A stretch of DNA of 36,683 bases from a virus, in IMG/VR virus record IMGVR_UViG_3300046812_000756, positions 1-36,683 of that record; one strand, given 5' to 3'. A model generated the notes under the pieces. The model searched no databases. It was not told the DNA's origin and was given only the letters and a program-made list of their open reading frames with translations. The position numbers and the translations under genes are program-made. Shown piece by piece: positions 209 through 27,415 of the stretch; the stretch's first letter is position 1; each line of letters opens with the position of its first letter.

Positions 209-1639
209 TCAAGCCGCCTCGGCGAGCAGCCGCACGAACACGTAGCCGGACGCGTGCACGATCGCCTCGACGCCGTAGCGGAAGGCGTCGGCAGCGTGCT
301 TGAGGTCATCGTCCTTGCCGCACCAGTGCTGCAGCGAGCGGACGACGCCTTTGCACCCCTCGGCGACCTGCAGCGCGGGCAGCGTGCCGATCCGCTCGTC
401 GAGGAGCTGGTTGCAGCACACCACGCCGCGGTCGATGCTGTCCGGCCCCTTGCGCGCCGGGCGGAAGCTGACCCGCGGATCGTCGCGCGGGAAGCCCATC
501 ATCGCGGCGAACTCCTGCTCGAACAGCTCGTTCAGCGTCCGCGCCATCGTGGACTTCGTCGTGGCGTTCGTGTCGCCCACCACGAAGGCGAGCTGCGAGG
601 GCTCGATGCCGAGGCCCTCGACCATCCGCAGCACGGCGTGCGCCTCGCCGCGGGCCGACATGCGCTCGGGGTTCGTCCACTCCCCCAACGCACGGATCGC
701 GAGCCGCACGCGCTTGTTGACCTCCTTCGTCTGCCAGCCCCAGAGCAACCAGTGCGAGTGTCCGGGCCCTTCGCCGTGGTCGACGCTCAGCGCGAGGTGG
801 ATCGGCTCGCGCACCCAGGGCCAGCCCTGCGTCCACCGCGGGCCCGCGCGCACGAGGTTGGGCTCGCCGAAGCCCACGAACCGCCGCGCGTCGCTGACCC
901 CTTCCCAGGCGCCCAAGATCCGCTGGTGGTACTGCCACGGCGTGCGGTTCGCCTCCCGCACGCGCTCCTCGATCTGGGCCGGCGTGTACCAGGGGCAGTT
1001 CTCGGCGGTGAGCGCTACCTGGTAGAAGCTCCACCCGTCGCCCCGCCCCGCCGCGCGGTCGGCGACGCCCTGCTCGACGACCTCCTTCAACCAGTCGACG
1101 GGCCGGTCCACGGCGGTGAGCAGCACCCACACGCGACCCTGGCGGCTGAACACGCGCGCCTCGGCGGCCGTGAACCACGCCGACGGCGGGGGCTCGTCGA
1201 GCAGCACCACGTCGAACTCGTCGCCTTCGCCGGACTGCGGGTGCATCTCGTAGGACATGAACTCGCAGGACGAGCCGTTCACGAGCACCGCGATCCCGTT
1301 GCCGTTGAACCCGCGGCCGTCCTGCCACAGACAGCCCGCCGTCAGCAGGTCCCGCGCGAAGTGCGCGAAGTAGCCCGAGTGCACGCGGTTCACGCGCTTC
1401 GTGGTCGGCCCGACGACGCGTGCCCGGGTGCCCGGGTGGTCGGCGAGGAACTGCACGAGCTTGTAGATCCCCTGCCACGTCTTCCCGGTGCGGTTCGCCG
1501 CCAGCACGCAGATCCGCGTGTGGTCGTCGTCGACGAAGGCCGAGAGCGCCGGGCTCGGCTCGAAGAACAGCCGAGGCCGCTCCCGCCGCGCGCGGTCCAG
1601 CCGTCGCAGCGCGCGCCGGGTCCCGGCGGACAGCTTCAC
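209..1639 (-). CDS. terL: Terminase large subunit (packaging ATPase/nuclease)
   Basis: Motor that pumps DNA into the prohead and cuts the concatemer; it works with TerS and the portal. The 476 residues carry an N-terminal ATPase with Walker A AANRTGKT (47-54), Walker B VVLLDE (144-149) and a coupling motif LLTAV (173-177). A C-terminal RNase H-like nuclease follows, with acidic residues in SVDHGEG (D287), VVGDTNA (D356) and HAADAF (about D451). The length is normal for the family. The ATG overlaps the portal stop by four bases (ATGA), so the two genes form one leftward operon. It is oddly oriented: terL and portal run against terS and against all other head and tail genes. Confidence 0.93.
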   Translation of the reverse strand: MKLSAGTRRALRRLDRARRERPRLFFEPSPALSAFVDDDHTRICVLAANRTGKTWQGIYKLVQFLADHPGTRARVVGPTTKRVNRVHSGYFAHFARDLLTAGCLWQDGRGFNGNGIAVLVNGSSCEFMSYEMHPQSGEGDEFDVVLLDEPPPSAWFTAAEARVFSRQGRVWVLLTAVDRPVDWLKEVVEQGVADRAAGRGDGWSFYQVALTAENCPWYTPAQIEERVREANRTPWQYHQRILGAWEGVSDARRFVGFGEPNLVRAGPRWTQGWPWVREPIHLALSVDHGEGPGHSHWLLWGWQTKEVNKRVRLAIRALGEWTNPERMSARGEAHAVLRMVEGLGIEPSQLAFVVGDTNATTKSTMARTLNELFEQEFAAMMGFPRDDPRVSFRPARKGPDSIDRGVVCCNQLLDERIGTLPALQVAEGCKGVVRSLQHWCGKDDDLKHAADAFRYGVEAIVHASGYVFVRLLAEAA

Positions 1640-3195
1640 TCGGCCGCCGGCTCGCCCCCGCTGCCCGGGCCGTCGGCGGCCCCGACCGCCGTGCTGCCCT
1701 CGGTGGGCTTGGGGGCGCCGTCGGTGGGCGGGGTGGTACCGGGCGGGGGCAGCCCGAGCGCCGCGTTGCGGGCGGCCTGCGCGTCCTCCTCGGCCTGTCG
1801 CCGCTCGTCCTGCACCGCGAGGTCGGCCTCCGCGTCCTCGAGCGACGTACCGGGGTGGAGCTCCTGGTAGGCGACGACGCGATCCAGCAGCTTCGCCTCC
1901 ATCTCGAGGAACAGCGTGGGAACGAGCTTCTGGCGCTCGTCGATCGTGAGCGCCACGCCGTGGTAGCGGGTGCGCGCGTTCTTCGCGGAGACGTTCGAGA
2001 CGCCCGCGCGCCCACGCAGCACCGCCGCCACGACCCGGTAGAGCTGGTCATCGCCGCGCCGGAAGTTGACCACGTCGCGCTTGGCGATCGCGCGCTTGCC
2101 CGCCTGCGACACGATGAGCGCCGCGCCGCTGGACGGGTTCAGCGACTCGACCACCACGTCGCTCTGCGGGATCCCGAAGTGGACGGCCAACTGGTTGCCG
2201 TACATCCGCACGAACCGCTCGGCCTTGTCCAGATCGATGCTCGCCGACCAGGTCCCGATCCCGACCTGCTCGCCGGTCACCTGCAGCACCGACGTCGGGT
2301 CGAGCGGGATCGTGCGTACGCCGTGGCCCATCAACGTCGCGTTCTGGGTGGCGGAGCCCTTGACCTGGCCGTTCATCAGTACGTGCTGGTCCCACGAAGC
2401 CCGCAGCGCACCGTGGACGGTCGCGGTCCACAGCAGGCCGACCTGCAAGGTGCCTGTGGTCATACCGGAGTCGCGCGACCAGGGCGACCACAGGCCGTTC
2501 GCGCCGCGGTCGTGGTACAGCGCGAAGGGCAGGATCGGCTTGCCGCCGTCGTCGAGGTAGGGGTAGGTCGATCCGGACCACAGCGCCGGATCGACGAACG
2601 CCGAGGTCATCTCGCGCGCGCGGTCGTTCGTCCAGATCCCGAACGTGCCGACCCCGTTCGCGATGCTCCACCGATCCCAGAACCACGCGCTCTCGTTGTC
2701 GCCGGGCAGCGTGCGACGACGCGCCCACCAGATCGTCTCGGGGCGCGACTCGTTCGTCGGCGCCGCCTCGATCCACATCTCGTCGGGCGTCACGAGCTTG
2801 AAGGTGCACACCTCGCCGGGCTCGTCGTAGCCGACGTAGACGGTCGACTCGTGCAGCCCGCGCACGTACTGCTGGTGCTGTCGCGCGAGCGTCCACCAAC
2901 CGCCCTGTTCGAGCGCGTCGGCGATCGCCTGCGACGACGCCCCCTCGATCGTCGGCGGATCGTCGTACATCGCGCACGTCTGCTCGAGGACGTTCAAGAA
3001 CAGGCAGGTCGACGTATCGACCGTGCCCATCATCCGCGCGCGCACGGGGCCGAGTTGCCGGATCGCATGGGCGAGCAGCAACGGCTCCCAGCACCCGTCC
3101 ACGAACGAGCGGCGCTCCCAGGCCACGCGCACGCGCCGCTGCTCGTCGGGCGGGAACTGAGGCCCGCTGATCCGCTCGATCCCGGGCTCCTCCAC
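1636..3195 (-). CDS. Portal protein
   Basis: Likely dodecameric portal at the capsid vertex through which terminase loads DNA. The chosen start is the GTG at 3195, six bases after a GGAGG; the frame stays open to 3366 but the upstream part has no better ribosome site and would cross the divergent promoter. The 519-residue product has the aromatic-rich body and the late SSGAALIVSQAGKR segment seen in many portals, and an acidic/proline-rich C-terminal tail (roughly residues 470-519). Its place immediately upstream of terL, overlapping by four bases, and opposite the scaffold and capsid genes supports the call. The family was recognised by general pattern and context, not by a catalytic motif. 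Confidence 0.8.
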   Translation of the reverse strand: MEEPGIERISGPQFPPDEQRRVRVAWERRSFVDGCWEPLLLAHAIRQLGPVRARMMGTVDTSTCLFLNVLEQTCAMYDDPPTIEGASSQAIADALEQGGWWTLARQHQQYVRGLHESTVYVGYDEPGEVCTFKLVTPDEMWIEAAPTNESRPETIWWARRRTLPGDNESAWFWDRWSIANGVGTFGIWTNDRAREMTSAFVDPALWSGSTYPYLDDGGKPILPFALYHDRGANGLWSPWSRDSGMTTGTLQVGLLWTATVHGALRASWDQHVLMNGQVKGSATQNATLMGHGVRTIPLDPTSVLQVTGEQVGIGTWSASIDLDKAERFVRMYGNQLAVHFGIPQSDVVVESLNPSSGAALIVSQAGKRAIAKRDVVNFRRGDDQLYRVVAAVLRGRAGVSNVSAKNARTRYHGVALTIDERQKLVPTLFLEMEAKLLDRVVAYQELHPGTSLEDAEADLAVQDERRQAEEDAQAARNAALGLPPPGTTPPTDGAPKPTEGSTAVGAADGPGSGGEPAAE

Positions 3196-3229
3196 GCGCG
3201 CCTCCGTGACTACAGAGTAGCACGCTCGG

Positions 3230-3258
3230 TTGATATCTCGACAACGCTCTGGTATGTG
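3230..3258 (+). promoter_or_regulatory. Candidate rightward late promoter in the portal/scaffold divergent gap
   Basis: TTGATA (3230-3235) and TATGTG (3253-3258) are separated by 17 bases, a good sigma70-like arrangement in an AT-richer patch between the divergent portal and scaffold genes. The block GATATCTCGACA (3232-3243) recurs with one change at 20166-20177 before another rightward unit, so it may be a late-promoter element. A leftward promoter for portal-terL is less clear; TACTCT (complement of 3214-3219) could be its -10, with TTGTCG (complement of 3239-3244) at a 19-base spacing. Confidence 0.5.
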
Positions 3259-3323
3259 AACGGCACGACCGCCGTAGACCCGCCGCGTTGGGCGAAAAAC
3301 ACGAAGGTTCGAGGAGTCGTCGA

Positions 3324-3935
3324 GTGGCTGACCAGAGTTCGACCCCGGCCGCACCGCCTGCTGCACCGCCCCCGCCGAGCGTCTCGCCGACGCCGGAGCC
3401 CGGACCGGTGCCGTACCAGCGGTTCCATGAGGTCAACACCCGGGCTCAGGCGCTCGAAGCCGAGAAGGCACAGCTCCAGGCGCAGATCGAGGGACACAAG
3501 CAGTCCGTGGCGCAACACCTCGCGAACCAGGCCAGCAAGCTCAGCGCGGAGCGTCAGCTCCACGTCGCGCTCGCCCGCGCCGGGGTCGCCGAGGGCTACG
3601 CGGATCTGCTCGCCGAGCGCTACCAGACGCTCGGCAAGGACGCCCCTCCGGTCGGCGACTGGATCGCGAGTCAGAAGGCCGCGATCCCCGGCGTGTTCGC
3701 GCAGAACACGACCCCGCCGCCGGTCGCCCCTGCTCCTGTGCCGACCCCTCCCGCCGCACCGCCGCCTGCCCGGGGCAATCCCGACGCGGGCGCGAACGGA
3801 GCCGCGGCTCACCCCAACGCACAGGACCCGCCGCTCACGCAAGAGCTGATCGAGGCGATGGACGCCAAGACCTACGCCCGCCGCCGGACGGAGATCAAGG
3901 CGTTCCTCCTCGAGCAGCGCACTTCGCGGAGGTAG
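3324..3935 (+). CDS. Probable capsid scaffolding protein
   Basis: First gene of the rightward late operon, immediately before the major capsid protein, the usual place for a scaffold. The GTG start at 3324 lies seven bases after GAGGAG; an in-frame TTG at 3288 lacks a ribosome site. The 203-residue protein has a proline-rich N-terminus, a predicted coiled coil around residues 30-75 (rich in Ala, Gln, Glu, Lys), a second Pro/Ala-rich linker (about 120-160), and a basic helical C-terminus (ARRRTEIKAFLLEQRTSRR). Such a basic tail is how many scaffolds contact the coat protein. No protease gene is seen nearby. The role is inferred from composition and location. Confidence 0.7.
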   Translation: MADQSSTPAAPPAAPPPPSVSPTPEPGPVPYQRFHEVNTRAQALEAEKAQLQAQIEGHKQSVAQHLANQASKLSAERQLHVALARAGVAEGYADLLAERYQTLGKDAPPVGDWIASQKAAIPGVFAQNTTPPPVAPAPVPTPPAAPPPARGNPDAGANGAAAHPNAQDPPLTQELIEAMDAKTYARRRTEIKAFLLEQRTSRR

Positions 3936-6968: not shown

Positions 6969-7391
6969 ATGCAGAACCCCATCGCCATGCCGCCCGCCCG
7001 GGCCCGCACGTCCGCCGAGATCGCGGGCTTCCACGAGACCCGCGACGCCGCGCTCGAGGCCGCGCGCGCCAAGGTCGCCAAGGCGGTCGGCACGCTGGGC
7101 CTGTCCGCGCTGGTGGTCGAGGTGCTCCAGGTCGGCGTGCCCGTGCTCGTCGACACCGCGTCGGTCCTCGACCGCGCGCTGCACGTCGAGGCGCCGGGCG
7201 GTCCCGGACTGACGCGGGGCGAGCTCTCGCAGCTCGCGCGAGGCGCGGGGCACGAGTTGGAGCGGCGCATCAACGAAGGGCTCGCCCACCTCGTCACCGC
7301 GGACCCGATCCCCTCGGTCGGCCCCGACGAGACGCCGACCGCGCCCGCCCCGGTCACGCCGCCCGCGGCCCCGACCACGCCGGCCGCCTGA
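6969..7391 (+). CDS. Hypothetical protein with Pro/Ala-rich tail
   Basis: ATG start two bases after the previous stop. The 140-residue product is mostly helical up to about residue 110 (ARAKVAKAVGTLGLSALVVEVLQVGVPVLVD has a hydrophobic helix but charged flanks), then ends in a low-complexity Pro/Thr/Ala tail. It could be a minor head or head-tail joining component. No recognised family. Confidence 0.68.
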   Translation: MQNPIAMPPARARTSAEIAGFHETRDAALEAARAKVAKAVGTLGLSALVVEVLQVGVPVLVDTASVLDRALHVEAPGGPGLTRGELSQLARGAGHELERRINEGLAHLVTADPIPSVGPDETPTAPAPVTPPAAPTTPAA

Positions 7392-7394
7392 CCG

Positions 7395-8168
7395 GTGCCC
7401 ACCGCCTCCCCGTCGCCGCGCTGGCCGCTGCCTCGGTTCGTCCAGAAGGGACGCGCCGAGACGGTGGACTGTCCGCTGTACGACGGGCGGGGACAGCCGG
7501 TGGCCGTGACGGCGGGTACCTACTCGCTGCTGGATCCGAACGGCGCCGCAGTGATCGACGCGGCGACGGCGACGATCACCGCGGGCGTCGCCTCGTACGC
7601 GCTCGGCTCGACCTTCGCCGACGCCTACACGCTGCCTCAGACGCCCTGGCGAGAGCGGTGGGTCCTCGACGGCGCGACGTTCGAGAACGAGGTTCACGTC
7701 TGCCGGGTGGCGCCCGTGCAGCACGTGACCGCCGAGGACCTGTTCCGGCTGCACCCGCAATGGCGGATGCAACTCCCGCGGTCGCGCACGTCCTCCACCT
7801 ACGACGAGCCGATCGCGGTCGCGTGGGAGGAGACGATCCAGCGGCTGATCGCCGACGGTCACCTCCCGCAGCGGGTGCTCAACTGGTGGGCCGTCGCGGT
7901 GATCCACAAGTACCGCGCCGCCGCGCTCGTCTGCCGCGACTTCACCGCCGACAACCCCAACGACAACCGCTGGCAGGCGTTGGGCCTCCAGTACGACGCG
8001 CGGGCCGAAGCAGAGTACACGGAGCGTCTCGCGTTCCAGGCCGACGCCGACGAGGACGGGATCGCCGAGACGCCCGGTCTGACCGAGGCCGCGGAGCCCC
8101 CGCTCTACCTGACCGACCTGCCGGTGCCCGACTGGCACTGGCCCGGCTACACGCGGCGGTCCTGGTGA
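7395..8168 (+). CDS. Probable head-tail connector protein
   Basis: GTG start, three bases after the previous stop. The 257-residue protein has an N-terminal beta domain (residues 15-110, ending in FENEVHVCRVAPV) and a helical second part with LFRLHPQWRMQLP, WEETIQRLIADGHLPQRVLNWWAV and RAAALVCRDF, then an acidic tail. A helical domain containing ETIQRLIADG-type sequence is common in adaptor/connector proteins that sit below the portal. The gene order (head, this gene, a neck-size protein, tail tube) agrees. Exact family unknown. Confidence 0.7.
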   Translation: MPTASPSPRWPLPRFVQKGRAETVDCPLYDGRGQPVAVTAGTYSLLDPNGAAVIDAATATITAGVASYALGSTFADAYTLPQTPWRERWVLDGATFENEVHVCRVAPVQHVTAEDLFRLHPQWRMQLPRSRTSSTYDEPIAVAWEETIQRLIADGHLPQRVLNWWAVAVIHKYRAAALVCRDFTADNPNDNRWQALGLQYDARAEAEYTERLAFQADADEDGIAETPGLTEAAEPPLYLTDLPVPDWHWPGYTRRSW

Positions 8169-8605
8169 GCACCCCCCGCACCCAGCACGACCAGTTGCAG
8201 CGGATCCGCCAGCAGATCGAGACGGACACCGAGCTGCGCGCGATGGAGACGCTGTTCAGCCTCGGCCAGCCGGGGAGCCTCCAGCACCGGCGGTTCCGCT
8301 TCGAGCTGCCGAGCAGCAACTACGGCGCCCCGGGCCAGTCGCCCAATGCGGATCTGCAGCTCGACGTGATCGACGACCTCGTGATCGTGGTGGCCCACGA
8401 CGTGGACCCGCACCAGGAGGACGCCTCGTGGCGCCTCGCCTCTGACGACGTCGCCAAGCTGCTGATCGGCCTGATGGCGTCAGACGTGGGCCAGGAGATC
8501 CGCATCCCCGGCGGCGGGTCGACGCCGTCGCTCCGCGGCCAGACGATCGAGCAGCGGATCCGGCTGCAGTACCGGTACTACCTCACGCTCCCGGAGCCGA
8601 CATGA
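8165..8605 (+). CDS. Probable neck/tail-terminator-size protein
   Basis: GTG start overlapping the upstream stop by four bases. The 146-residue protein is alpha/beta, with an Arg/Gln-rich N-terminal helix and beta segments LQLDVIDDLVIVVAHDVD and QRIRLQYRYYLTLPE. Size and position directly before the tail tube gene match tail-terminator or head-closure proteins of siphoviruses. The similarity is positional; no motif defines it. Confidence 0.65.
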   Translation: MSTPRTQHDQLQRIRQQIETDTELRAMETLFSLGQPGSLQHRRFRFELPSSNYGAPGQSPNADLQLDVIDDLVIVVAHDVDPHQEDASWRLASDDVAKLLIGLMASDVGQEIRIPGGGSTPSLRGQTIEQRIRLQYRYYLTLPEPT

Positions 8606-9174
8606 CCGCTGAATCCTGGGCGTTGTTCGAGAACAACGGTTATCTCAACGCCTACGACGGTAGCGGCGCGAGCTTGCTGCGCCTGAAGTACGTCGTCGGC
8701 GACGTCAAGATCAGCGGCCTGATGCGGATCTGCAACACGCCCGTGGACGCGATGATCCGCGGCGGGTTCTTCGGGACGGGCTACGGTGAGGCGACGATCC
8801 CGACGGTCACGCTGTCCGAGCGGCTGATGCAGCTCGCCGCGGCTGCGGCCCCCGGCACGGTGGGAGAGTTCCTCGGCGGCACGGGCGCGTACAGCGGGAA
8901 CTACTCGACGTTCGGCAACGGCTTCCCGTACGCCGTCCACCTGGAATTCATCGCGAAGGGCTCGGCGCTCGGCAAGCCCGACAACACGCTGAAGCTCTGG
9001 CACGTCCAGTTCCCGAGCTTCGAGCTCGCGCAGGGTAGTCCGTGGACGCGATCGTGGACGGGCCGGGTGCTCGGCGTGCCCGGGTTCTGGGCCAGCAGCG
9101 TCGGCGGCGCGGGCACGGTCGCGAGCCTCGACGGCGCGATCTACAGCCGGAGGATCGACCAGGATGGGAACTGA
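8602..9174 (+). CDS. Probable major tail tube protein
   Basis: ATG start in a four-base overlap with the previous stop. The 190-residue protein is beta-rich with many Gly residues and segments such as YVVGDVKISGLMRIC, GGFFGTGYGEATIPTVTLSE and TLKLWHVQFPSFELAQ. A strong beta content, this size, and location immediately upstream of a frameshifting tail chaperone pair support a tail tube role. No alternative tube candidate is present between neck and chaperones. Confidence 0.7.
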   Translation: MTAESWALFENNGYLNAYDGSGASLLRLKYVVGDVKISGLMRICNTPVDAMIRGGFFGTGYGEATIPTVTLSERLMQLAAAAAPGTVGEFLGGTGAYSGNYSTFGNGFPYAVHLEFIAKGSALGKPDNTLKLWHVQFPSFELAQGSPWTRSWTGRVLGVPGFWASSVGGAGTVASLDGAIYSRRIDQDGN

Positions 9175-9661
9175 CCCGAAGCCCGTGCAGACGGCCTGGC
9201 CGATCGGTGGTGGGTACACCACGAAGCTGGCGGCGCCGAAGAAGTTCTCCGACCGGTGGGCGGTGCAGCTCGCGCTGCAGGACACCGCCAACCGGACCGA
9301 TCTGTACGTGTTCGTCTGCGCCGCCGCGATCGCCGTCTGCGATCCGGAGGTCGCAGGCTTCGTCGACGAGGCGGCCCGCTTCGCGCGTCGGGAAGGACTC
9401 GCCGCGTACGGGGCGGTCGTGATCGACTACCTGACCTCCCTCGACCCGCCCGCGACGCCTCAGCAGATCGTCGACGCCGGGCAGGCGGCCGTCGCGCTGT
9501 GCCGGGAGAAGGCCGTCACCCAGGCCGCGATCCAGGAGGCGGCGGATTTTTCGAGTCCCCAGCCGGCCGCTTCGACCTCGAACAACTCGACGTCGAGCGC
9601 GACTGGGGACAGCAGCCTGGTTGGCTGGGTACCCTCGACCCCGCCGACGCCGCCCCGCTGA
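9164..9661 (+). CDS. Tail assembly chaperone, short (unshifted) form
   Basis: Counterpart of lambda gpG, which helps load the tape measure for tube polymerisation. The zero-frame product is 165 residues; the compact part runs to about residue 130 (VDAGQAAVALCREKAVTQAAIQEAADF). The remainder after the slippery site is low-complexity Ser/Thr/Pro, as expected for a tail read only when no shift occurs. The start overlaps the tube gene by 11 bases. It precedes the tape measure by one gene. The call rests on the frameshift architecture and gene order. Confidence 0.75.
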   Translation: MGTDPKPVQTAWPIGGGYTTKLAAPKKFSDRWAVQLALQDTANRTDLYVFVCAAAIAVCDPEVAGFVDEAARFARREGLAAYGAVVIDYLTSLDPPATPQQIVDAGQAAVALCREKAVTQAAIQEAADFSSPQPAASTSNNSTSSATGDSSLVGWVPSTPPTPPR

Positions 9662-9717
9662 TCGCGCGGCACCGCAGGAGGCAGCGTGAGCAGCACGATC
9701 GCCACCGTAAGTCTTGA
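9164..9717 (+). CDS. Tail assembly chaperone, -1 frameshift fusion (G-T type)
   Basis: Ribosomes shifting by -1 at 9547-9551 leave the G-like frame and continue to the TGA at 9715-9717. This adds about 57 residues (GFFESPAGRFDLEQLDVERD then GQQPGWLGTLDPADAAPLIARHRRR). The segment LDPADAAPLIARHR resembles the closing motif of T-extensions in other phages, in which Pro-x-Asp-Gln-Ala is followed by Leu-Leu/Ile and Arg. The shifted reading therefore looks more protein-like than the unshifted tail. The end overlaps the next gene (start 9686). Total about 184 residues. Coordinates are given as a span; the real reading changes frame at about 9550. Confidence 0.78.
9546..9610 (+). promoter_or_regulatory. 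Programmed -1 frameshift site with stimulatory stem
   Basis: The site is GGATTTTTC (T-run 9547-9551). A Phe-tRNA on zero-frame TTT can re-pair perfectly on TTT one base back, and the next -1 codon is TTC. Three bases after the T-run, GTCCCCAG (9555-9562) pairs exactly with CTGGGGAC (9603-9610). Inside that loop TCGACCTCGA (9572-9581) pairs with TCGACGTCGA (9587-9596), nine pairs around one C-C mismatch, closed by ACAAC. A slippery run closely followed by a strong stem is the standard arrangement for ribosomal frameshifting. Confidence 0.8.
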
Positions 9718-10066
9718 CCTGCGCCCGCTCGTGGCCCGCTGGGGCGAGGCCGCACGACAGGCGGCGATCGACCAGCTCCAGTTCGACGCCCTGAAGATCG
9801 TCGCCGACGCCAAGCGCCCGGGGCAGTGGCCGGTGGACACGGGACGGAGTCGCGGCCTGCTGTTCGCGACGGAGCCGTTCGTCAACGGGGACCGCGTCAC
9901 GATCAAGATCCTGGACGCCGCGCCGTACGCCTCGTACATCCACCAGCGCGGCTCGGCGACGCTCGTCTGGGACGCCCTGATCTTGCAACCGCTCCAGGCG
10001 CTCTCGGGCCGGCGGTTCGTCCAAGCGATCGCCGCGCGGATCCGGTCGCTGCAGCGTGCCGCGTGA
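9686..10066 (+). CDS. HK97 gp10-like tail completion protein
   Basis: GTG start five bases after an AGGAGG. The 126-residue protein has an N-terminal helix, then the pattern WPVDTGRSRGLL followed by FVNGDRVTIKILDAAPYASYIHQRG. 'VDTG-x-SR-x-L ... A-x-YA-x-Y-x-x-x-G' is characteristic of the gp10/minor tail family that joins tail and head. Unusually, it lies between the chaperone gene and the tape measure rather than before the tail tube. Confidence 0.75.
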   Translation: MSSTIATVSLDLRPLVARWGEAARQAAIDQLQFDALKIVADAKRPGQWPVDTGRSRGLLFATEPFVNGDRVTIKILDAAPYASYIHQRGSATLVWDALILQPLQALSGRRFVQAIAARIRSLQRAA

Positions 10067-11676
10067 GCGGCGAGGACGCGACCGCAACCGTCGGCGTCAA
10101 CGTCCAGCCGTTCGTCACCGGGATCCAGCAACTCGTCCCGGCCGGACAGGACGCCGCGAACAAGTCCGCCAAGGTGATGTCGGACACGTACTCGGCGGAG
10201 TTCGGCAAGATCGTGCAGGTGGGCGCCGCCGCCGCGCGCCGGGTGGGCGGTGAGTTCGGCAGCCTCGGCACCGACATCAGTCGGGTGATCCGCCCGCTGG
10301 CCTCGATCTCCCCCGAACTCGCGGCGATCGGGGCCTCGGCCGTCGCGGTCGGCGCGGTGGGGATCGCGATCGACAGCATGGCGACCGCGGCGCAGTCGGC
10401 CGCGCAGCAACTCGACAAGCTCGGAGTCGTGTTCGATCCGACGGCCCGAGCCGACATCGATGCGTACACCAAGGCGCAGCAGGATCTGTCGATCGCTCTC
10501 GACAACACGAAGATCACGATGGGATCAGGCTTCGCCGAAGCCCTCGGGATCGTCGACTCCGCGTTCGCGCAGGATCTCAACTACCTGACACGGTTCGTGG
10601 ACAAGATCGGCACCGCCACGCTCGACGTAACGGGGCTCCGCGGCGAGCTCGACAAGCTCGCGAAGGCGGTGGGCGCCGATCCGACCGCCGCGTCGAACCA
10701 GAACGCGTTCACGGCCATGCTCCAGGACCAGATCAAGGCGCAGCCCGCGGTCGACGCGGCGTTCACAGCGCAGATCAACGGCCAGAAGCGGCTGAACGAC
10801 ACCGTTCGCGAGGGGGTCCTCGCCCGCGATCGGCTGGCGCAGGCCGACAACGCCTGGGCGTTGAAGGACATGCTCCAGACCGCCGATGCGGTGGTCGCGC
10901 AGGACAAGTACGTCCAGGCGGCCAAGGACGCCGCTCTCGCGCAGCAGAAGTCCCTGTCGGACGCCGGCCGGTATTGGGACGACTTCACCGCACAGGTCGA
11001 TTCGGACCTTGGCGACCTCAAGACGGCGATCACCGACGTCGACCGCCAGATCGGCCAGTCCCTCGACGAGTGGGAGCGGCAGCGCGCGCAAGCCTTCCTC
11101 GACGTCGCCAACCAGAACGTCAACTCCATCACCTCTGTGACGCAGCTCGAGATCGACTCGATCCAGCAGCGGGTCGACGCCGGGCAGAAGCTGACCGTGG
11201 CACAGGCGGCGCAGGGGAACGCGGCGCTCGATCTGCAAGAGGGCCTCGCGATCGCGCAGGCGGGGATCCAGGCCACGATGGCGGGCCTCGGCACGTACGC
11301 CGAACTCGCGCCGTTCCTGACGCCGCTCGGGGCCGCGGCAGTCGCGACCGCCACGTCCGCCGCAGCCTACGCCGCTGCGGTGGCGGGGATCGTGGCGCAC
11401 GAGCCCGCGCAGTTCCACGCCGGCTCGTCCCCCTACGCCGTCGACCCGCAGGGTGCGGCGGACTCCGCGATCGCAGCGAAGGGCGGATCCGTCGACACGA
11501 GCCACGGCTCGGACTCGGGCGTCGGCCGCGCGGGCCAGGGACCCCAAGCGCCGGGCGGCAAGGGCAACGTGGACCGCACCCGGGGCGGCGGTCAGATCGA
11601 CTTCAGCCCGGAAGCCAGCCGCCTCCTCCGCTGGAAGCACCGCGCGGGCAAGCGCGATCCGAGGGGGCGCCGGTGA
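10063..11676 (+). CDS. Tail tape measure protein
   Basis: Sets tail length and is ejected with DNA. GTG start in a four-base overlap with the gp10-like gene. The 537 residues are largely helical: a DATATVGVNVQPFVTGIQQL opening, a hydrophobic Ala/Gly/Ile segment (about residues 80-115, ASISPELAAIGASAVAVGAV) that could cross a membrane, long helical heptads (about 120-370), and a second Ala-rich hydrophobic region (about 420-460, TPLGAAAVATATSAAAYAAA). The C-terminus is Gly-rich and basic. At about 1.5 angstroms per residue it predicts a short tail, near 80 nm. Confidence 0.85.
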   Translation: MSGEDATATVGVNVQPFVTGIQQLVPAGQDAANKSAKVMSDTYSAEFGKIVQVGAAAARRVGGEFGSLGTDISRVIRPLASISPELAAIGASAVAVGAVGIAIDSMATAAQSAAQQLDKLGVVFDPTARADIDAYTKAQQDLSIALDNTKITMGSGFAEALGIVDSAFAQDLNYLTRFVDKIGTATLDVTGLRGELDKLAKAVGADPTAASNQNAFTAMLQDQIKAQPAVDAAFTAQINGQKRLNDTVREGVLARDRLAQADNAWALKDMLQTADAVVAQDKYVQAAKDAALAQQKSLSDAGRYWDDFTAQVDSDLGDLKTAITDVDRQIGQSLDEWERQRAQAFLDVANQNVNSITSVTQLEIDSIQQRVDAGQKLTVAQAAQGNAALDLQEGLAIAQAGIQATMAGLGTYAELAPFLTPLGAAAVATATSAAAYAAAVAGIVAHEPAQFHAGSSPYAVDPQGAADSAIAAKGGSVDTSHGSDSGVGRAGQGPQAPGGKGNVDRTRGGGQIDFSPEASRLLRWKHRAGKRDPRGRR

Positions 11677-14600
11677 GCGCGCTCTCGCCCCGCTTCACGC
11701 TCGCCCTGCTGTCGCGGGACCTGAGCTCCACCACGCTCGCCGCGGTGGGCGCGGGCACGTTCGACTCCTCCTACACCGAGGACGGCGCCGGGCCCGGGAC
11801 GCCCGAGCCACAGGAGGACGGCTCGACGTGGCGGGTCCAGATCGGGCAGGCGCAGTCGGTGGGCCTGACGGTGGGCACGGCGCGCGGCGGCTACCCCGGC
11901 CTCGACGGCGCGCAGGTGGTGTACCGCCTCGCCTCCGACAGCGCGTCCACCGACTACCGGAGCTGGCAGGACCCGGTCCTGATCACGGGCTGGTCGGCCC
12001 CGACCGGCGGGTGGGCAAGTAACGCCGACTGGGACCAGATCGCCGTCACCGTGATCGCCGAGACCGGGGTCATCGTGATCGTGGCGGTCGACCAGGACGA
12101 GAACGACGCGCAGACGTTCTCGTGGGACCCGCGCACCGACACCTGGACGTCGCTGTACGACTGGGACGCGGGCGCGGCAGACGGGCTCGTGCTTCCCGTG
12201 GGCCTCGCCTACGACGCCGCCCGGGCCCGGCTCCTGCTCTGGTCCGGCTACAACGCCGCGGGGGTGCGCCAGCAGACCGCCTACGAGTCGACCGACGGTG
12301 GCACGACGTGGACGATCTACAGCCGGGGCTTCGCCGAGGGCTTCACCGACGACAGCGGCACGGGCGTCGGCACCTACAGCACGACGGGCAGCTTCTACCC
12401 GGTGATCGGCGATGACCTCGACTGGCTCATGATCGCCAACGAGGACCTCTCCGACCTCACCCTCACGATGACGACGCCGGACGCTGCGAACGGCGTCCAC
12501 CTCGCGAGCAGCGACGCGGGCGTCACCTGGGACCTGATCACGGACCTGTCGGCGGTGGGCCCCGGGCAGCCGCTCAAGAGCCCGGCCGGGTTCGTGTACT
12601 GCAAGGTCGATCTCGCCGACTCGAACCACCTCAAGGCCGTGATCACCGCGAGCGCGCGGGCCCGGTTCAGCACCTCGGTCACGATCAGCAGCGCGCGCAG
12701 CTACTCGGGCTGTTGGGCCTGCGCGGACGCCGACGGGACGCTGTACGTCGTGGGTCGAGGGGCCAGCGGCGCGGCGACGATCGGCAAGCTCCACCTCTTC
12801 CGCAGCCTCGACGGCGGGCTCACCTGGGACGACTACGGCTGGCTGCTCTGGGACTCGGGTAGCTCGAGCCACTACCTCGACCCGCGCGCGCTCGTCGCAG
12901 CTCAGGGGAAGCTGCACCTCGTCTGCACGTCGCAGGGCACCGGGACCCCGAACAGCATCCAGGTGGTGTCGCTCGGCGGGTGGTCGCAGGTTGCGCACGG
13001 GTCGGGCGCCACGAACTACGTGCGCAACCCGACGCACCGCTTCGGCTGGGGCGGCACGGACAGCACCGCCACGAACGGCTACGCGCTCGGGTACCTCCCG
13101 TTCGCGCTGCCGGCCAACGTGGGCTGGACCGGGGTCACGACCACCGGGACCACGTCGCTCGCCGCAGCGACCCCAGCGCTGCTGCTGACGACAACCGCGG
13201 GGCAGGGGGAGCGGTTCTCGGCGCAGTCGAGCAACAACGCGACCTATGCCGCGTGCGACATCGACGTCAAGCTGGACGCGAGCGGCAACGTCACGCTCGC
13301 GACCCTCGGCACCGCAGGGGGCGGCGTCGGGATCCTGATGTCGATGTCCAAGGCCGGCGGCGCGGGCTGGTTCTACGAGCTCGGGATCGACATCGGCACC
13401 GACGGGATCCAGGTCCGGGACGCGATCACGAGCGGCACGCCGACGATCCGGTCGACCGTCGCGCTCGACATGACCTCGCAGTTCACCCGGATCCGCGCCC
13501 ACTTGACGAAGGGCACGGCCACCGTCTGGTACAGTCGCGACTACGGCGTCACCTGGACCCGGCTCTCGAACGGCGTCACGATCACCGACAACGGGACCGG
13601 CGTGGCGTCGGGCGGGGACATCCTGCTCTGGGGCAACGGGACCACCCAGGTGGGGAAATCGTACTGGCGGCTCGTGGGCTTCGCCGCGGCGGCGGACTGG
13701 CAGTACGGCGTCGACGGGATCAACGCGGTGGGGGACAGCCCGGCCAGCGGTCCCCTCGGCCACGCGTTCGGCAAAGCGGTCGCCCCACCCAGCAGCGGCG
13801 GCTACCCGATCCCCGAGGGCACGGCGTCCGGTGCCGATCTGGCGCTGCTGTCGGCGACGGGCGGGCCGACGCACACGGGCGAGATCGTCTCGCTCCCGGT
13901 GGCGCACCAGTACGGGGCCGAGAACATCGACCCGATCGTGAGCCCGAGCCCGCGTCGGACGTGGCGGTCGTTGGCCAACACCGCGGCGGCGTTCGTCTGG
14001 GACCAGGGCGCCAACGAGGAGAAGTCGTTCGGCGGGGCGCTGGCGCTCGTCGTCTCGTCGACCGTCCGGCAGTGGGTGCTCCAGATCGACGACGGCGCCT
14101 CGCCCCCCGTCGGCTGGACGACGCTGGGTACCCTCGACCTCGCGGCGGGCACCGGGCTCACCTTCACCCGCACGGGCCGCACGATCGCACCGGACACCGG
14201 CACCGCCACCCTCTCGCGCCGGTTCGCCGAGAACGAGTTCGCGGGCGGGACGTGGACCTTCGACGACGGGACCTGTTGCAAGATCGCGTCGTCGACCGGC
14301 GGCTTCTGGACGGACTCCACCAGCGTCAAGCAGATGACGATCACGCTGGAAGCCGTGGCGGGCACCGAGCCCTCGTCGGGCAGCGCCGGTATCCTGTGCG
14401 CGCCCGCCGGTGTGCTGGTCGTCTACCCGTCGAGCCAGCTCCGGCGCCGGTACGTCCGGGCCCGCGCCGCGGCGTCGCAGCCCTGCGTCGGAGGCCAGTA
14501 CGAGGCCGGGTGCGTCGCGGTGGGGCGGCTCGTGGCGCTGTCCGACCCCGAGTGGACGTGGTCGGCGACGACCGGGCTCGTGCGCCAGTTCGCCACCTCC

Positions 14601-14981
14601 AGCGATGGCGTCACGACCGCCACCGAGCTCGGCCCGGCGGTACGGACGCTGACCTACACCTGGGGCACGGCCCCGCTCGCGTACGCCCAGACGCTCGCGA
14701 CGGCGCCCGACATGTTCAAGGGCACCGGCGGCGTCGGGATCGGCTCGGCACTCAATGCGCCTGTCGACCTCCCCGGGCTCGTGGCGCAGCTCGAGTCGGG
14801 CGCGATCCCGTGCGTCGTGATCCCGCGCGCCCCGGCGGCAGCGGCGAGCACGACCGACCCGCGGCGGTTCCTCCTCGGGCGCGTCTCCTCCGGGAGCCTG
14901 TCCGTGGGCGCGTCGAGCGGCACGGAGGGCACCAACGAGTTCGCGACAGGGCCGAGCCTGTCTGTGGTCGAGCTCAAGTGA
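11673..14981 (+). CDS. Large tail protein with Asp-box (BNR) repeats
   Basis: GTG start in a four-base overlap with the tape measure gene. The 1102-residue protein has four Asp-box motifs (S-x-D-x-G-x-T-W): STDGGTTW near residue 206, SSDAGVTW near 279, SLDGGLTW near 378, and SRDYGVTW near 621. Asp-boxes mark beta-propellers of the sialidase type, so the N-terminal half probably folds as a propeller that may bind or cleave a surface glycan. A laminin-G-like part follows (about 500-660), then a beta-rich C-terminal half of unknown fold. Its place right after the tape measure is that of a distal-tail or tip protein. Whether it is an enzyme cannot be told; the Arg triad of sialidases was not identified. 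Confidence 0.8.
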   Translation: MSALSPRFTLALLSRDLSSTTLAAVGAGTFDSSYTEDGAGPGTPEPQEDGSTWRVQIGQAQSVGLTVGTARGGYPGLDGAQVVYRLASDSASTDYRSWQDPVLITGWSAPTGGWASNADWDQIAVTVIAETGVIVIVAVDQDENDAQTFSWDPRTDTWTSLYDWDAGAADGLVLPVGLAYDAARARLLLWSGYNAAGVRQQTAYESTDGGTTWTIYSRGFAEGFTDDSGTGVGTYSTTGSFYPVIGDDLDWLMIANEDLSDLTLTMTTPDAANGVHLASSDAGVTWDLITDLSAVGPGQPLKSPAGFVYCKVDLADSNHLKAVITASARARFSTSVTISSARSYSGCWACADADGTLYVVGRGASGAATIGKLHLFRSLDGGLTWDDYGWLLWDSGSSSHYLDPRALVAAQGKLHLVCTSQGTGTPNSIQVVSLGGWSQVAHGSGATNYVRNPTHRFGWGGTDSTATNGYALGYLPFALPANVGWTGVTTTGTTSLAAATPALLLTTTAGQGERFSAQSSNNATYAACDIDVKLDASGNVTLATLGTAGGGVGILMSMSKAGGAGWFYELGIDIGTDGIQVRDAITSGTPTIRSTVALDMTSQFTRIRAHLTKGTATVWYSRDYGVTWTRLSNGVTITDNGTGVASGGDILLWGNGTTQVGKSYWRLVGFAAAADWQYGVDGINAVGDSPASGPLGHAFGKAVAPPSSGGYPIPEGTASGADLALLSATGGPTHTGEIVSLPVAHQYGAENIDPIVSPSPRRTWRSLANTAAAFVWDQGANEEKSFGGALALVVSSTVRQWVLQIDDGASPPVGWTTLGTLDLAAGTGLTFTRTGRTIAPDTGTATLSRRFAENEFAGGTWTFDDGTCCKIASSTGGFWTDSTSVKQMTITLEAVAGTEPSSGSAGILCAPAGVLVVYPSSQLRRRYVRARAAASQPCVGGQYEAGCVAVGRLVALSDPEWTWSATTGLVRQFATSSDGVTTATELGPAVRTLTYTWGTAPLAYAQTLATAPDMFKGTGGVGIGSALNAPVDLPGLVAQLESGAIPCVVIPRAPAAAASTTDPRRFLLGRVSSGSLSVGASSGTEGTNEFATGPSLSVVELK

Positions 14982-16510
14982 CCCCGGCCTACTGGCTGCT
15001 CGAGGTCACGATCGACGGACGGGTGTTCCGCTGGTCGACGACCCGGGTCGTGGTTGAGGGGACGACCTACTTCGCCGGGCTCCAGGATCTCACCACCGAG
15101 GCGGGCGCCGATCAGGTGTCGTTCTCGATCGTCGATCCGTCCGTCGACTGGCCCGCCCTCGCGCCTCAGGCCGACGGTGGATCGGCGGTCCTCCGGCGCT
15201 GGCGGACCGACCAGGCGCTCGACCAGGCGCTCGCGGTGACGTCGGGCGAGCTGCGCGTGGGCTCGTGGGGCGCCCGTGACGACCCCTTCGCCGCTACGAT
15301 CTGGCGGACCGTCGGCACCTCGCTCGGGACCGCGGTGCCCGACACGACCGCCCGGATCGCCGACGACACCTGGCCCGACACCGATCCGGACTCCGTGATC
15401 GGCGACGAAGGGCGCAGCTACCCGGTGATCCTCGGCTACCCGGGCCGGATCGACGAGTCGACGCTGGTGCCCGTAGTGCCGCTGCCGTTGGCGCAGTGGA
15501 ACACGAGTGCCACGCTCACGATCGCGATCGTCGCCGAGGACGGGGCGCAGGCGATCACCTCGATCGCCGTCTACAACGCTGCGACGCTCGCGACGACCAA
15601 CGAGACCGCGTCGGCGGGCACCGACCAACTCGGCCACGACCTGCGGTACTGCGGGTTCCAGGCCGACAGCGCCGCATGGCCGCTCACCGCCGACCAGCCG
15701 CGCGAGCTGTACGCGGCGTACTCGGTCGCCGGTGGCGGGGGGCCGCGGACCGCCTACGACGTGCTCGTGTACGGGCTGCGTCGGTGGGCCCGCGACTCGG
15801 CGGACTGGGCGCGGCTGCCCGAGTCGAAGGCCGGGCTCGAGCGGTTCCTCGTCGACACCTGGATCGACGACCCGCAGTCGGACTGGTGGGCCTGGTACGA
15901 GTCCGCGCTGCTGCCGTTCGTGCCCTTCCAGATCCGCACCTCGGACCGGGGCCGGTACCTCGTCGAGCAGCGCTACGCGAGCGACCCGCGCCGTCGGGTG
16001 CGGTCGATCGACGCCGACCGGGGCGAGGCGGCGATCACGAGTGCTATCCAGCTCTCGGACACCGGCCCGTACAACGAGTTCACGGCGAACTACCGCCCCG
16101 ATCGCGAGGGAGACTGGCTCGGGCGGATCCTGCTCACCGGGCGCTCGGGGGTGGTCTCGGCGCGCGCGCTGGGCGCGGACGTGACGGCGCTCGTCACCAC
16201 CGCCGACCGCTCGGCGCTCTGCTCGCGGTCCGAGGCGCGGTACGGCGCGCGCCCAGCCCCGTCCGTCGACCTCGACTGGTGCTGGGACGAGGGGACGGCC
16301 CGCGCGGTGCTGGCGTGGCAGGCCGAGCGGGACGCGCTGCCTGCCCGGATCGCCACCTACCTCGTCCGCGACGGCGACACGCTGCGCGAGGGGGACGAGG
16401 TGCTCCTGACGGACACCGCGCGGGGGCTGGACGAGGCGGCGGCGATCGTCACCACCCCGCCGACGCTGACGGCGACGGGCACAGCGATCGACTTCCGGAT
16501 CCCGGCATGA
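14978..16510 (+). CDS. Probable tail hub/baseplate protein
   Basis: GTG start in a four-base overlap with the Asp-box gene. The 510-residue protein opens with a beta-barrel-like domain (YWLLEVTIDGRVFRWSTTRV ... DQVSFSIVDPSVDW). This resembles the first domain of phage tail tip proteins that close the tube. A central region with WWAWYESALLPFVPFQIRTSDRGRYLVEQRYASD and a C-terminal beta domain follow. It probably joins tube and fibre. The stop TGA (16508-16510) nearly meets the stop of the minus-strand lipoprotein gene, within a TGACGTCA palindrome. Confidence 0.72.
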   Translation: MTPAYWLLEVTIDGRVFRWSTTRVVVEGTTYFAGLQDLTTEAGADQVSFSIVDPSVDWPALAPQADGGSAVLRRWRTDQALDQALAVTSGELRVGSWGARDDPFAATIWRTVGTSLGTAVPDTTARIADDTWPDTDPDSVIGDEGRSYPVILGYPGRIDESTLVPVVPLPLAQWNTSATLTIAIVAEDGAQAITSIAVYNAATLATTNETASAGTDQLGHDLRYCGFQADSAAWPLTADQPRELYAAYSVAGGGGPRTAYDVLVYGLRRWARDSADWARLPESKAGLERFLVDTWIDDPQSDWWAWYESALLPFVPFQIRTSDRGRYLVEQRYASDPRRRVRSIDADRGEAAITSAIQLSDTGPYNEFTANYRPDREGDWLGRILLTGRSGVVSARALGADVTALVTTADRSALCSRSEARYGARPAPSVDLDWCWDEGTARAVLAWQAERDALPARIATYLVRDGDTLREGDEVLLTDTARGLDEAAAIVTTPPTLTATGTAIDFRIPA

Positions 16511-24167: not shown

Positions 24168-24500
24168 TCACGAAGGCTGAGTCCAAGGGACGCCGATCGA
24201 GAACTGACCGAGAACTTCTTCCCCGGACCGGTCCCGGCTGTATTCGCCACCCCAGCGCGCAGCGCCACGGGTCGGATCGGCGAGGTGAACCATCCGCCAG
24301 GGGAGCTGAGTCCCGGCAGCCTTCGCAGCGGGGTCGTCGTCCGTCCGCTCGTAGCGGTCGACCTTCCCGTCGAGGTAGTCCCGCACGAACTCGGTGCGGG
24401 TGCAGACGATGAGTCCAGCCTTGTCGCAGTTCATCCGACCTCCTCCTTCGACCAGCTCGGTCCACTCGACGCGGTACGTCAGCGCTGCCTTCCTCTTCAT
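24168..24500 (-). CDS. Hypothetical protein downstream of integrase
   Basis: ATG overlaps the integrase stop by four bases and follows GAGGAGG three bases upstream. The 110-residue product is mixed alpha/beta: a basic start (KRKAALTYRVEWTELVEG), CDKAGLIVCTRTEFVRDYLDGKVDRYER, then an acidic part and a Trp/Gly-rich end. Two cysteines (25 and 33) are eight apart. It lies between the integrase and the attP candidate and is the last gene of the leftward operon. No family recognised. Confidence 0.68.
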   Translation of the reverse strand: MKRKAALTYRVEWTELVEGGGRMNCDKAGLIVCTRTEFVRDYLDGKVDRYERTDDDPAAKAAGTQLPWRMVHLADPTRGAARWGGEYSRDRSGEEVLGQFSIGVPWTQPS

Positions 24501-25582
24501 CCGACCTCCTCGAGTTTCCGGGTCGACGGGAACGCGAGCACCACGCCCAGCGCCGACCCCTCGACCACCTCGCGCTTCCTGTCCTCCGACACCTGCCGGT
24601 AGTGCGTGATCGCGGTCTGCTCGGAGTGCCCGAGCTGGGCCCCGGCGGCCTTGGGGTCCGCGCCCGCCGACTCGTACAGCGCGTCGACGACGTGCCGGCG
24701 GAGGCTGTTCGGGCTGCACCGGCCGATCCCCAACTCCTCGCTCCTCCGGGCCAGCGCGAGCCGCACCCGGTTCTGCGAGACCCCGACCACGCGGCCCGTC
24801 CCGCGCTCCCACCGCCGGATCTCCGCGGCCACTGGTCCGGGCACGATCACCCGACGCGGCCCCGTCTTGCCGTCGACGTCGAGCGTGGCCCCGTCGAGGG
24901 CGACGCGGTCCCACGTCAGCGAGTCGATCTCCCCGATCCGGCAGCCCGTCGCGGCGAGCAGGATCAGCCCCCGGCGCACGGGCGGCGACACCCCGACCAG
25001 CAGTTGCGCCACCTCGCGGGCCGAGGGCGTGTAGCGGGTCGTGGTGGGCGTCACCTTCACGCGGAAGCTGGGGAGCCGGCGGAGCGGCACCTGCGGGGGG
25101 TCGAGCTCCTGCGCCCACCTCCACGCCTGCCTCAGATACTTCAGGTCCCGGGCGATCGTCCCGCTCGAGTAGCCGGCCGCCTCCGCCGCGAACGCGTACA
25201 GCGCGAGCCCCTCCCGGCCGAGCGAGCGCGCCGGGTGGTCGGCGGGTCCGTGCTCGACGAGCCGCTTCACCGCGCCCTCGATCGCGAGCCGGGTCCGCGT
25301 CCCCTCCCGGATCGTCGCCTGGACCGAGGCGAGCCAGCAGTCGAGCAGGTCCCCCACGCGATCGATCTCGGGGCCGGCGTCGGGCGCGGGGGCCTCGGAG
25401 AGTTTGGCGCGGACGGCGTCGGCGGCCTCCTCCTTGGTGCCCCACCCCAGCCAGACGTCGACGCGACCGCCTCGCCCGTCGGGACGATCCGCGCGCCAGT
25501 ACCACCGCCCGTCCCGATCGGGACCCCTCCGAACCCGCACCCGTGCAGGGTGCACCTCGAACGCCGCAGGTCGCTTCGCCAC
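24497..25582 (-). CDS. int: Tyrosine integrase
   Basis: Site-specific recombinase for integration and excision. The GTG start at 25582 is five bases after GGAGG. The 361-residue protein has an N-terminal arm-binding part, a SAM-like core-binding domain (about residues 70-170) and a catalytic domain (about 185-345). Catalytic residues: Arg215 in ATGCRIGEID, Lys239 in DGKTGPRR, Arg295 in NSLRRH, His319 in QLGHS, and the Tyr328 nucleophile in THYRQV. The first His of the H-x-x-R box is Asn292 here, a notable change. The upstream neighbour is an Xis-like gene and the downstream DNA carries the attP candidate. Confidence 0.9.
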   Translation of the reverse strand: MAKRPAAFEVHPARVRVRRGPDRDGRWYWRADRPDGRGGRVDVWLGWGTKEEAADAVRAKLSEAPAPDAGPEIDRVGDLLDCWLASVQATIREGTRTRLAIEGAVKRLVEHGPADHPARSLGREGLALYAFAAEAAGYSSGTIARDLKYLRQAWRWAQELDPPQVPLRRLPSFRVKVTPTTTRYTPSAREVAQLLVGVSPPVRRGLILLAATGCRIGEIDSLTWDRVALDGATLDVDGKTGPRRVIVPGPVAAEIRRWERGTGRVVGVSQNRVRLALARRSEELGIGRCSPNSLRRHVVDALYESAGADPKAAGAQLGHSEQTAITHYRQVSEDRKREVVEGSALGVVLAFPSTRKLEEVG

Positions 25583-25584
25583 GC

Positions 25585-25866
25585 TCACCTCCCCTTCGGC
25601 CGGTACACACCGGCGCGGGGCAGCGTACCGCCCTCGGGCTTCGGGGTCGGCTTGGGCTTGCGCGCCTCGCCAGCGAGCGCGGCGAGGACCTCGCCCCAGA
25701 TCACGTACTTCCCGAGCTCGGGTCGCTCGCGCACGAGCCCGGAGGACCGGAGCCACGCGAGCGCGTCGTCGTCGCGGAACGGGAGCAGTTCGGCGGCGAC
25801 GCCCTCCGAGAACACGGCGTCGGCACCCTGGGCGAGTCGGGCGGCCTGGCGTTCCTCGCGCGTCAC
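25585..25866 (-). CDS. Probable excisionase/recombination directionality factor
   Basis: GTG in a four-base overlap with a small membrane gene. The 93-residue product has the pattern SEGVAAELLPFRDDDALAWL followed by a GLVRERPELGKYVIWGEVL segment, which resembles the winged-helix layout of Xis/MerR-type DNA-binding proteins (recognition helix then a wing ending in a hydrophobic strand-helix). A basic, Pro-rich tail follows. It is transcribed directly before int, the usual Xis position. A role in excision is inferred. Confidence 0.65.
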   Translation of the reverse strand: MTREERQAARLAQGADAVFSEGVAAELLPFRDDDALAWLRSSGLVRERPELGKYVIWGEVLAALAGEARKPKPTPKPEGGTLPRAGVYRPKGR

Positions 25867-26328: not shown

Positions 26329-26672
26329 GGCTGCACCCCCAGCTCGGCGCACAACTCCTCGACCAGCTCGCGCGCGAGCCGCATCCGCCGCGTGGCGGTG
26401 CAGACCTCGCCACGCTCGATGTGCTCCTGAGCGGCGTAGAGGTAGAGGTCGACCGCCTCCTGGAGTTGGTCGACGCGGGCATCGCGGCCGTTGTCGACCT
26501 CGAGCTCCGTCCCGTACCGCTCGCGCCCCTGCCCCCGGCGGACCCGGAGCAGCGAGGCGAGTCGACCGTCGCTCTCGCCCCAGTAGTCCAACGAGGTGAG
26601 GAGCCAGTCGGTGACCGACTCCTCGCCCGGGACCGGAGCGGGCTGGGGTGCCAGGGCCTCGGCCGGCGTCAC
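26325..26672 (-). CDS. Hypothetical helical protein downstream of ERF gene
   Basis: GTG overlaps the ERF-family stop by four bases. The 115-residue protein is acidic and helical, with VTDWLLTSLDYWGESDGRLA, then QLQEAVDLYLYAAQEHIERG and MRLARELVEELCAELGV. Its tight coupling to the annealing protein suggests a recombination accessory role, but no family is recognised. Confidence 0.65.
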   Translation of the reverse strand: MTPAEALAPQPAPVPGEESVTDWLLTSLDYWGESDGRLASLLRVRRGQGRERYGTELEVDNGRDARVDQLQEAVDLYLYAAQEHIERGEVCTATRRMRLARELVEELCAELGVQP

Positions 26673-27415
26673 GCCGCACCTCCCGCCGTCTGCTCGTCGC
26701 GCCCGGCCCACTCCAGGATCGCGACCCGCAGCGACGGATCGGCGAGGCGGCGGAGGAGTTCGGCCCGCTGCTCCGGCGACAGGTACGCCGGTGTGGTCTT
26801 GCCCTGCGCTTCGCGGTACGCCGAGAGCACCTCGAGCGGTACCGCGGGCTCCACGAGCTGCCCGAGCAGCCCCTCGAACCGCTCGCGCTCCACCGTCGTC
26901 CACCGCTGGCCTCCCCCGCTCGACCCCTCAGGGCCTGCACCACGAGCAGCCGAGGACGCGCCCGACACTCCGGACGCCGACGTCGAGGGGGGAGGCGAAG
27001 GGCGGCGCTGGTCGTGGTGCTGCTGCGCCGAGTCGGCGTCGTCATCTTCGGTCGCGGCGACCCCCACAAGGGCCTCCAGCGTGTAGCGCCGCCCGTACGT
27101 GATCTCCGAGCCGCGCTCCTGCGGCCCGCCCGTCCACGCGAGCGGCCAGACCGACTCGAGCACCTCGCCCGAGCCGTGGCGGAGCTGCGTCACGAGCACC
27201 GGGCCGCCGTCGACGAGCCGGATCGGCTGGGAGATCGCGATCCCGTGGCGCGCGAGCACCGGACGGATCGCCCGCAGCAGGTCGTCGAGACCGGCGTACC
27301 GGTAGTCGGCACGGCCTCGGACCTGCCCGCTCTTGTTGCGCTCCGGGTCGCGGAGCTCTACCTGCGCCGCGGCGAGTGCGGCGGACAGGGGACTCGTGGT
27401 CGTATCGTCAGCCAC
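26669..27415 (-). CDS. erf: ERF-family single-strand annealing protein
   Basis: Anneals complementary single strands during phage recombination and genome circularisation. GTG start six bases after GGAGGT. The 248 residues begin with the ERF domain: SAALAAAQVEL, YRYAGLDDLLRAIRPVLARHGI (about residues 38-59), LVTQLRHGSGE, then GPQERGSEITYGRRYTLEAL (about 96-115) with VGVAATEDDDAD. A Ser/Gly-rich linker (about 135-165) leads to a helical C-terminal domain ending near ILEWAGRDEQ. The family match is clear. No exonuclease or SSB gene is obvious beside it. Confidence 0.88.
   Translation of the reverse strand: MADDTTTSPLSAALAAAQVELRDPERNKSGQVRGRADYRYAGLDDLLRAIRPVLARHGIAISQPIRLVDGGPVLVTQLRHGSGEVLESVWPLAWTGGPQERGSEITYGRRYTLEALVGVAATEDDDADSAQQHHDQRRPSPPPSTSASGVSGASSAARGAGPEGSSGGGQRWTTVERERFEGLLGQLVEPAVPLEVLSAYREAQGKTTPAYLSPEQRAELLRRLADPSLRVAILEWAGRDEQTAGGAA

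Follow-up and report, generated by a model that had tools for sequence, protein, structure and literature searches.

In phage lambda, a short and a long tail assembly chaperone, G and GT, are made from one gene through a frameshift at an A-rich site. The same two-product output (Levin et al. 1993; Xu et al. 2004, 2013, 2014, as cited in PMC5009743) is predicted for the locus described here, which lies in a window of viral DNA (the whole analysed stretch of 36,683 nt). The window differs from lambda in its heptamer, G_GAT_TTT, in its strong 3' stem-loop, in the lack of a family match, and in a small extra gene that separates the fusion from the tape measure gene. Tail chaperone frameshifts are also annotated in 2,397 of 3,679 SEA-PHAGES genomes of actinobacteriophages (PMC10885494), and these share gene position and the two-product scheme with the window. 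The lineage of the window, in contrast, gave no match when 50,697 phage records were searched with its chaperone, T domain, terminase, portal, and tube proteins; bacterial genome contigs were scanned as well, again without a match.

The heptamer is known from RNA viruses. Pea enation mosaic virus 2 shifts at G_GAU_UUU, and G_GA-type sites occur in insect-specific flaviviruses, dianthoviruses, and mesoniviruses (PMC5009743). Heptamer, phase, and 3' structure are common to the G_GAU_UUU sites and the window, but the RNA-virus sites are used by eukaryotic ribosomes and lie in unrelated genes. On the bacterial ribosome, E. coli dnaX combines a heptamer with a hairpin that stimulates the -1 shift after a 5-nt spacer (PMC8861025); the spacer in the window is 4 nt. 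The dnaX system differs in its site (A_AAA_AAG), in its Shine-Dalgarno (SD)-like stimulator at the spacing for -1 shifts, in its efficiency of 50-80%, and in being a cellular gene (PMC8861025).

In the window, the 0-frame product, a putative G-like tail assembly chaperone of 165 aa, is encoded at 9164..9661 (+) from an ATG and consists of a conserved helical domain to residue 129 followed by a low-complexity tail. The slippery heptamer G_GAT_TTT occupies 9544..9550 (+) as part of GGATTTTTC, located at 9544-9552, where the 0 frame reads GCG|GAT|TTT|TCG and then AGT CCC; this is the phase required for a -1 shift site. The A site, T_TTT, conforms fully to the X_XXY_YYZ rule, and the P site, G_GAT, is of the G_GA type, classed as 'intermediate' in the review of Atkins et al. 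(PMC5009743). The -1 frame reads GGA TTT TTC GAG TCC..., giving the peptide GFFESPAGRFDLEQLDVERDWGQQPGWLGTLDPADAAPLIARHR..., and runs without a stop until the TGA at 9715-9717. Slippage on the heptamer is predicted to yield a fusion of 184 residues ending ...EAADFFESPAGRFDLEQLDVERDWGQQPGWLGTLDPADAAPLIARHRRRQREQHDRHRKS, the length proposed in a sequence-only reading of this DNA, with the T-like extension encoded at 9551..9717 (+). The unshifted tail, SSPQPAASTSNNSTSSATGDSSLVGWVPSTPPTPPR, is Ser/Thr/Pro-rich and ends at 9661, and had rightly been called low-complexity.

That reading had also singled out a T5 run in a GC-rich genome, and composition bears this out: G+C of the window is 72%, TTTTT occurs once on the + strand, and GGATTTT occurs once in all. 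In-frame T_TTT is found at 1 of 4,183 late-gene codons, at the slip site; the other Phe codons of the late genes comprise 1 TTT and 99 TTC. Further slippery-looking overlaps in the scan were set aside because they lie in ORFs without coding sign or on the strand opposite the tail genes. Taken singly, the chance statistics of T-run, heptamer, stem, and fold would each be weak, and it is the comparative evidence that decides.

The -1 frame is open and selected from the slip site onward, as seen in G+C phase, silent-site pattern, and homologous T domains. Codon-position G+C of the 0 frame upstream of the site is 0.71/0.50/0.90. Past the site, the values are 0.49/0.81/0.84 for the 0 frame and 0.84/0.49/0.81 for the -1 frame; the pattern rotates by one base at the site, and therefore the coding signature passes to the -1 frame. 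The same rotation is seen in the related contigs L004 and L006. Codon changes in the overlap between the window and L004 are 5 silent and 1 not in the -1 frame, against 1 silent and 5 not in the 0 frame; the comparison with L006 gives 7 silent and 5 not in the -1 frame, against 0 silent and 11 not in the 0 frame. The +1 frame was dismissed as a target of the shift, since the conserved peptide is carried by the -1 frame only.

The close relatives are four IMG/VR contigs of two further lineages, L003 with L004 and L006 with L007. L003 and L004 are 74-75% identical to the window over the fusion, and the 57-aa extension has 82% identity over 51 residues to L006 and L007. T-run, stem, and -1 peptide are preserved in all four, as an alignment proposed in the sequence-only reading was meant to reveal, and TTTTTCGAGTCCCCAG and CTGGGGAC stand the same distance apart in each. 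The heptamer is G_GAT_TTT in L003/L004 and the canonical G_GGT_TTT in L006/L007. In L006, a -1-frame TGA lies 9 nt upstream of the T-run, and no ATG, GTG, or TTG is present between it and the conserved peptide; initiation at a usual start is therefore excluded, and ribosomes must cross from the 0 to the -1 frame at the heptamer or very close to it. A further contig, L021, found with the 16-base pattern TTTTTCGAGTCCCCAG, proved to be a chance match in unrelated DNA. Comparison of window 9164-14981 with L010/L011 reveals sharp mosaicism: the chaperone N domain is about 64% identical, the T domain and next gene 97-98%, the tape measure about 52%, and the distal tail about 95%.

Distant contigs were reached through terminase and portal searches, and their portals are 26-33% identical to that of the window (about 26-27% in L016, L033, and L036). 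The two-frame architecture recurs at the homologous place in these three. L016 has an ORF at 7012-7434 with an in-phase G_GAT_TTT at 7398-7404 and the -1 extension GFYRGRGGLDLLALHLGLTHFGDPDGFYRLEPEAQVRVLAHHR; the ORFs of L033 and L036 are 119 aa long, carry A_AAT_TTT, and are extended by KFYRTTRAGNVERQAFAISRFWGRDPDWYSSLSTDLQARLYVDY and similar peptides. The T-run is only four T's long in the distant relatives, and every lineage preserves the 0-frame phase NNT_TTT. In L033, a -1-frame TGA directly adjoins the heptamer and a 0-frame stop comes 24 nt after it, leaving only the heptamer and the short stretch of codons up to that stop for the shift; its -1 frame has no start codon (ATG/GTG/TTG) between the upstream stop and the T domain. 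When the profiles of the window group and the L033 group are compared (hhalign), the probability is 94% and E 1.2e-7, and the alignment spans the slip site; Phe at the slip and Phe/Tyr after it are invariant. The shifted frame, read early on as a pattern of T-extensions, has homologous T-like counterparts in close and distant relatives alike.

Downstream of the site, the 5' arm GTCCCCAG at 9555..9562 (+), invariant in five contigs, and the 3' arm CTGGGGAC at 9603..9610 (+) are exact reverse complements, and a nested hairpin occupies the loop at 9564..9601 (+), just as the sequence-only reading had described. It had placed the stem three bases downstream, which needs correction: the stem starts 2 nt after GGATTTTTC and 4 nt after the heptamer. 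Perfect 8-bp stems with a loop of up to 50 nt start at 0.47% of positions. The downstream RNA fold of the window has z = -3.35 against dinucleotide shuffles, and the stem-loop has z of about -3 to -4.6 across three lineages. Against 1,000 random synonymous versions of the -1 frame that follow the codon usage of the phage itself, z comes to -2.6 in the window, -2.9 in L004, and -3.05 in L006. By itself, the 60-nt segment ranks only among the most stable 1-2.5% of the genome, and the comparative evidence therefore weighs more than the fold.

Among three distinct sequences, 21 of 23 stem pairs are invariant. The innermost pair is unpaired in the window, and one pair in the nested hairpin is C-G in the window group but U-A in L006/L007; this double change replaces two -1 residues (Arg by Cys and Arg by His) and retains pairing. 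A covariation control with three distinct rows was not significant (171/500 shuffles). An Rfam scan returned only a sub-threshold malK-III match, taken as chance. Downstream of the L016 site there is no significant structure (z about -1), so the stem is not essential to the general scheme and looks like a clade-specific addition outside the core design. A 3' structure a few nt past the slip site is a frequent, not obligatory, companion of such sites; it is present here and probably stimulates the shift.

Upstream of the site lies AGGAGG, an SD-like hexamer at 9534..9539 (+), 4 nt before the heptamer, which may act as a pause element. SD-like stimulation of -1 shifts has been reported at a spacing of 9-14 nt (PMC5009743), and AGGAGG was rejected as a -1 stimulator, its 4-nt spacing being outside this range. 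AGGAGG or GGAGG stands 4 nt before the weak G_GAT_TTT sites of both the window (9534-9539) and L016 (7390-7397). The sequence contexts of L016, L033, and L036 also contain GAGG about 13 nt upstream of the heptamer, and in L006, whose G_GGT_TTT site is strong, GAGG is the only such element upstream. These elements could be a compensating stimulator or chance, and are a lead, not a result.

Gene order supports the chaperone assignment. The chaperone gene follows a putative tail tube (major tail) gene at 8602..9174 (+), whose 190-aa product is identified by position only (codon-position G+C 0.58/0.52/0.93). This tube candidate is 90% identical in L003 and 55% in L006 and has weak similarity to the syntenic L016 ORF (E 0.006); it has no family match, and its structure model has a pLDDT of 29.8. 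A small gene at 9686..10066 (+; 126 aa) overlaps the end of the -1 frame; by inspection only, its product is like HK97 gp10-type small tail proteins, and it gave no family match. The putative tape measure gene, at 10063..11676 (+; 537 aa from GTG 10063), is named from synteny and weak similarity. It is 37% identical to its L006 counterpart and weakly similar to the L033 tape measure (E 6e-9 without composition correction). ORFs at the equivalent position in L016, L033, and L036 were assigned by PHROG search to tail length tape measure families (E 1e-18 to 4e-26), whereas the window's own candidate matches no PHROG tape measure family. The chaperone thus has its expected position between tube and tape measure, the tube being placed by position and the tape measure by relatives and weak similarity.

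The name "tail chaperone gene", given from the start, is supported by gene order and architecture and not by a family match. Searches of the chaperone against PHROG and Pfam profiles gave no match, and small divergent proteins are easily missed by such searches. Its structure model is mainly helical (pLDDT 59.8, with residues 128-158 under 50), and it retrieved unrelated weak matches only, none useful, from PDB and viral folds. Because the tape measure is recognised in relatives and not in the window by family match, the assignment rests on synteny and architecture, from which the product is probably a tail assembly chaperone. The extended second product is likewise predicted, from sequence and conservation.

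The surroundings show further features. Two very long ORFs, at 10974-14981 and 12980-16510, overlap in different frames and are both highly identical in relatives. Terminase and portal genes lie at 209-3366 (-), on the strand opposite the head and tail genes that run from 3955 onward (+); portal and tail genes of L016, unlike those of the window, are on one strand. The - strand encodes a phage integrase at 24497-25756 (Pfam E 5e-9) and, at 26669-27415, an ERF-family recombination protein, and the phage is therefore probably temperate.

Several other explanations of the two-frame layout have been weighed. A T5 homopolymer in a metagenome contig of 72% G+C is a likely place for a sequencing or assembly error, and one wrong base in it would disguise a single-frame gene, a refutation that the sequence-only reading had itself named. 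The layout is repeated, however, in contigs from several datasets, and distant relatives show it with shorter T-runs; a single error is therefore insufficient, and this explanation has practically no probability left. The -1 frame might instead be a separately initiated small gene, with no fusion made. AGGAGG lies close upstream, and two chaperone ORFs are reported to be expressed apart in some Microbacterium phages (PMC7302621), but the window has no ATG, GTG, or TTG in the -1 frame from 9544 to the frame end, and L006 and L033 lack a start codon between upstream stop and T domain, which makes separate initiation very improbable. Transcriptional slippage on T5 would give a mixed mRNA pool, each message translated normally. 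Polymerase slips on T tracts and a stem can help it (PMC5009743), yet the T4 of distant relatives is short for slippage, and the phase NNT_TTT is maintained throughout, though slippage needs no phase; this origin is very unlikely.

A narrower doubt concerns the stem, which could be a by-product of two overlapping codings, with the heptamer alone driving the shift and no structural stimulator at work. The overlap of two reading frames may be a partial source of the nucleotide conservation here, synonymous-codon identity being raised but not absolute (83-94% in the stem region vs 64-70% in the N domain), and the weak fold of L016 also speaks for this explanation. Against it, the fold stands out (z -2.6 to -3.05) under a null that preserves the -1 protein and codon usage, the 8-bp arms are identical in three lineages, and the C-G to U-A change keeps the pair at the cost of both -1 residues. 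A stem without function is accordingly unlikely, with a real chance of being right nonetheless.

Programmed -1 ribosomal frameshifting in a tail assembly chaperone gene, with G-like and GT-like products, is thus the preferred reading, with a probability of roughly 93%. The proposal of a programmed -1 frameshift, made originally from the letters of the window, gains from the in-phase heptamer, the selected -1 frame, and the architecture that recurs in distant relatives. Translation of 9164-9661 would mostly end in the 165-aa G-like protein. A smaller share of the ribosomes, paused by the stem-loop while GAU occupies the P site and UUU the A site, would slip back one base. The tRNA-Phe would re-pair fully, from UUU to the overlapping UUU, and the tRNA-Asp probably in part, from GAU to GGA (a first-position match, a G.U pair, and a mismatch); this poor re-pairing in the P site is a point against frameshifting. 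Shifted ribosomes would continue in the -1 frame to produce the 184-aa GT-like fusion with its conserved T-like domain. If the parallel with lambda holds, the portion shared by both products would cover the tape measure protein and the T domain would bring in tail tube subunits, at a chaperone ratio set by a low frameshift rate.

A broader and tentative idea, which is rather improbable as a whole, is that one lineage forms a natural series of compensating signals: the P site would drift between weak (G_GAT) and strong (G_GGT, A_AAT) slipperiness while the A-site T_TTT stays fixed, and 3' stem and 5' SD-like elements would be gained and lost to hold the chaperone ratio.

As read here, the locus is another tail-chaperone frameshift of known type, in a lineage without match in the phage records searched. 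It indicates that the tail-chaperone frameshift persists in an uncultured lineage, at a homologous site in phages whose portals are only about a quarter identical. It also adds a phage case, with a well-formed stem-loop, to the G_GAU_UUU shift sites of eukaryotic RNA viruses. Both frames should be joined when these genomes are annotated.
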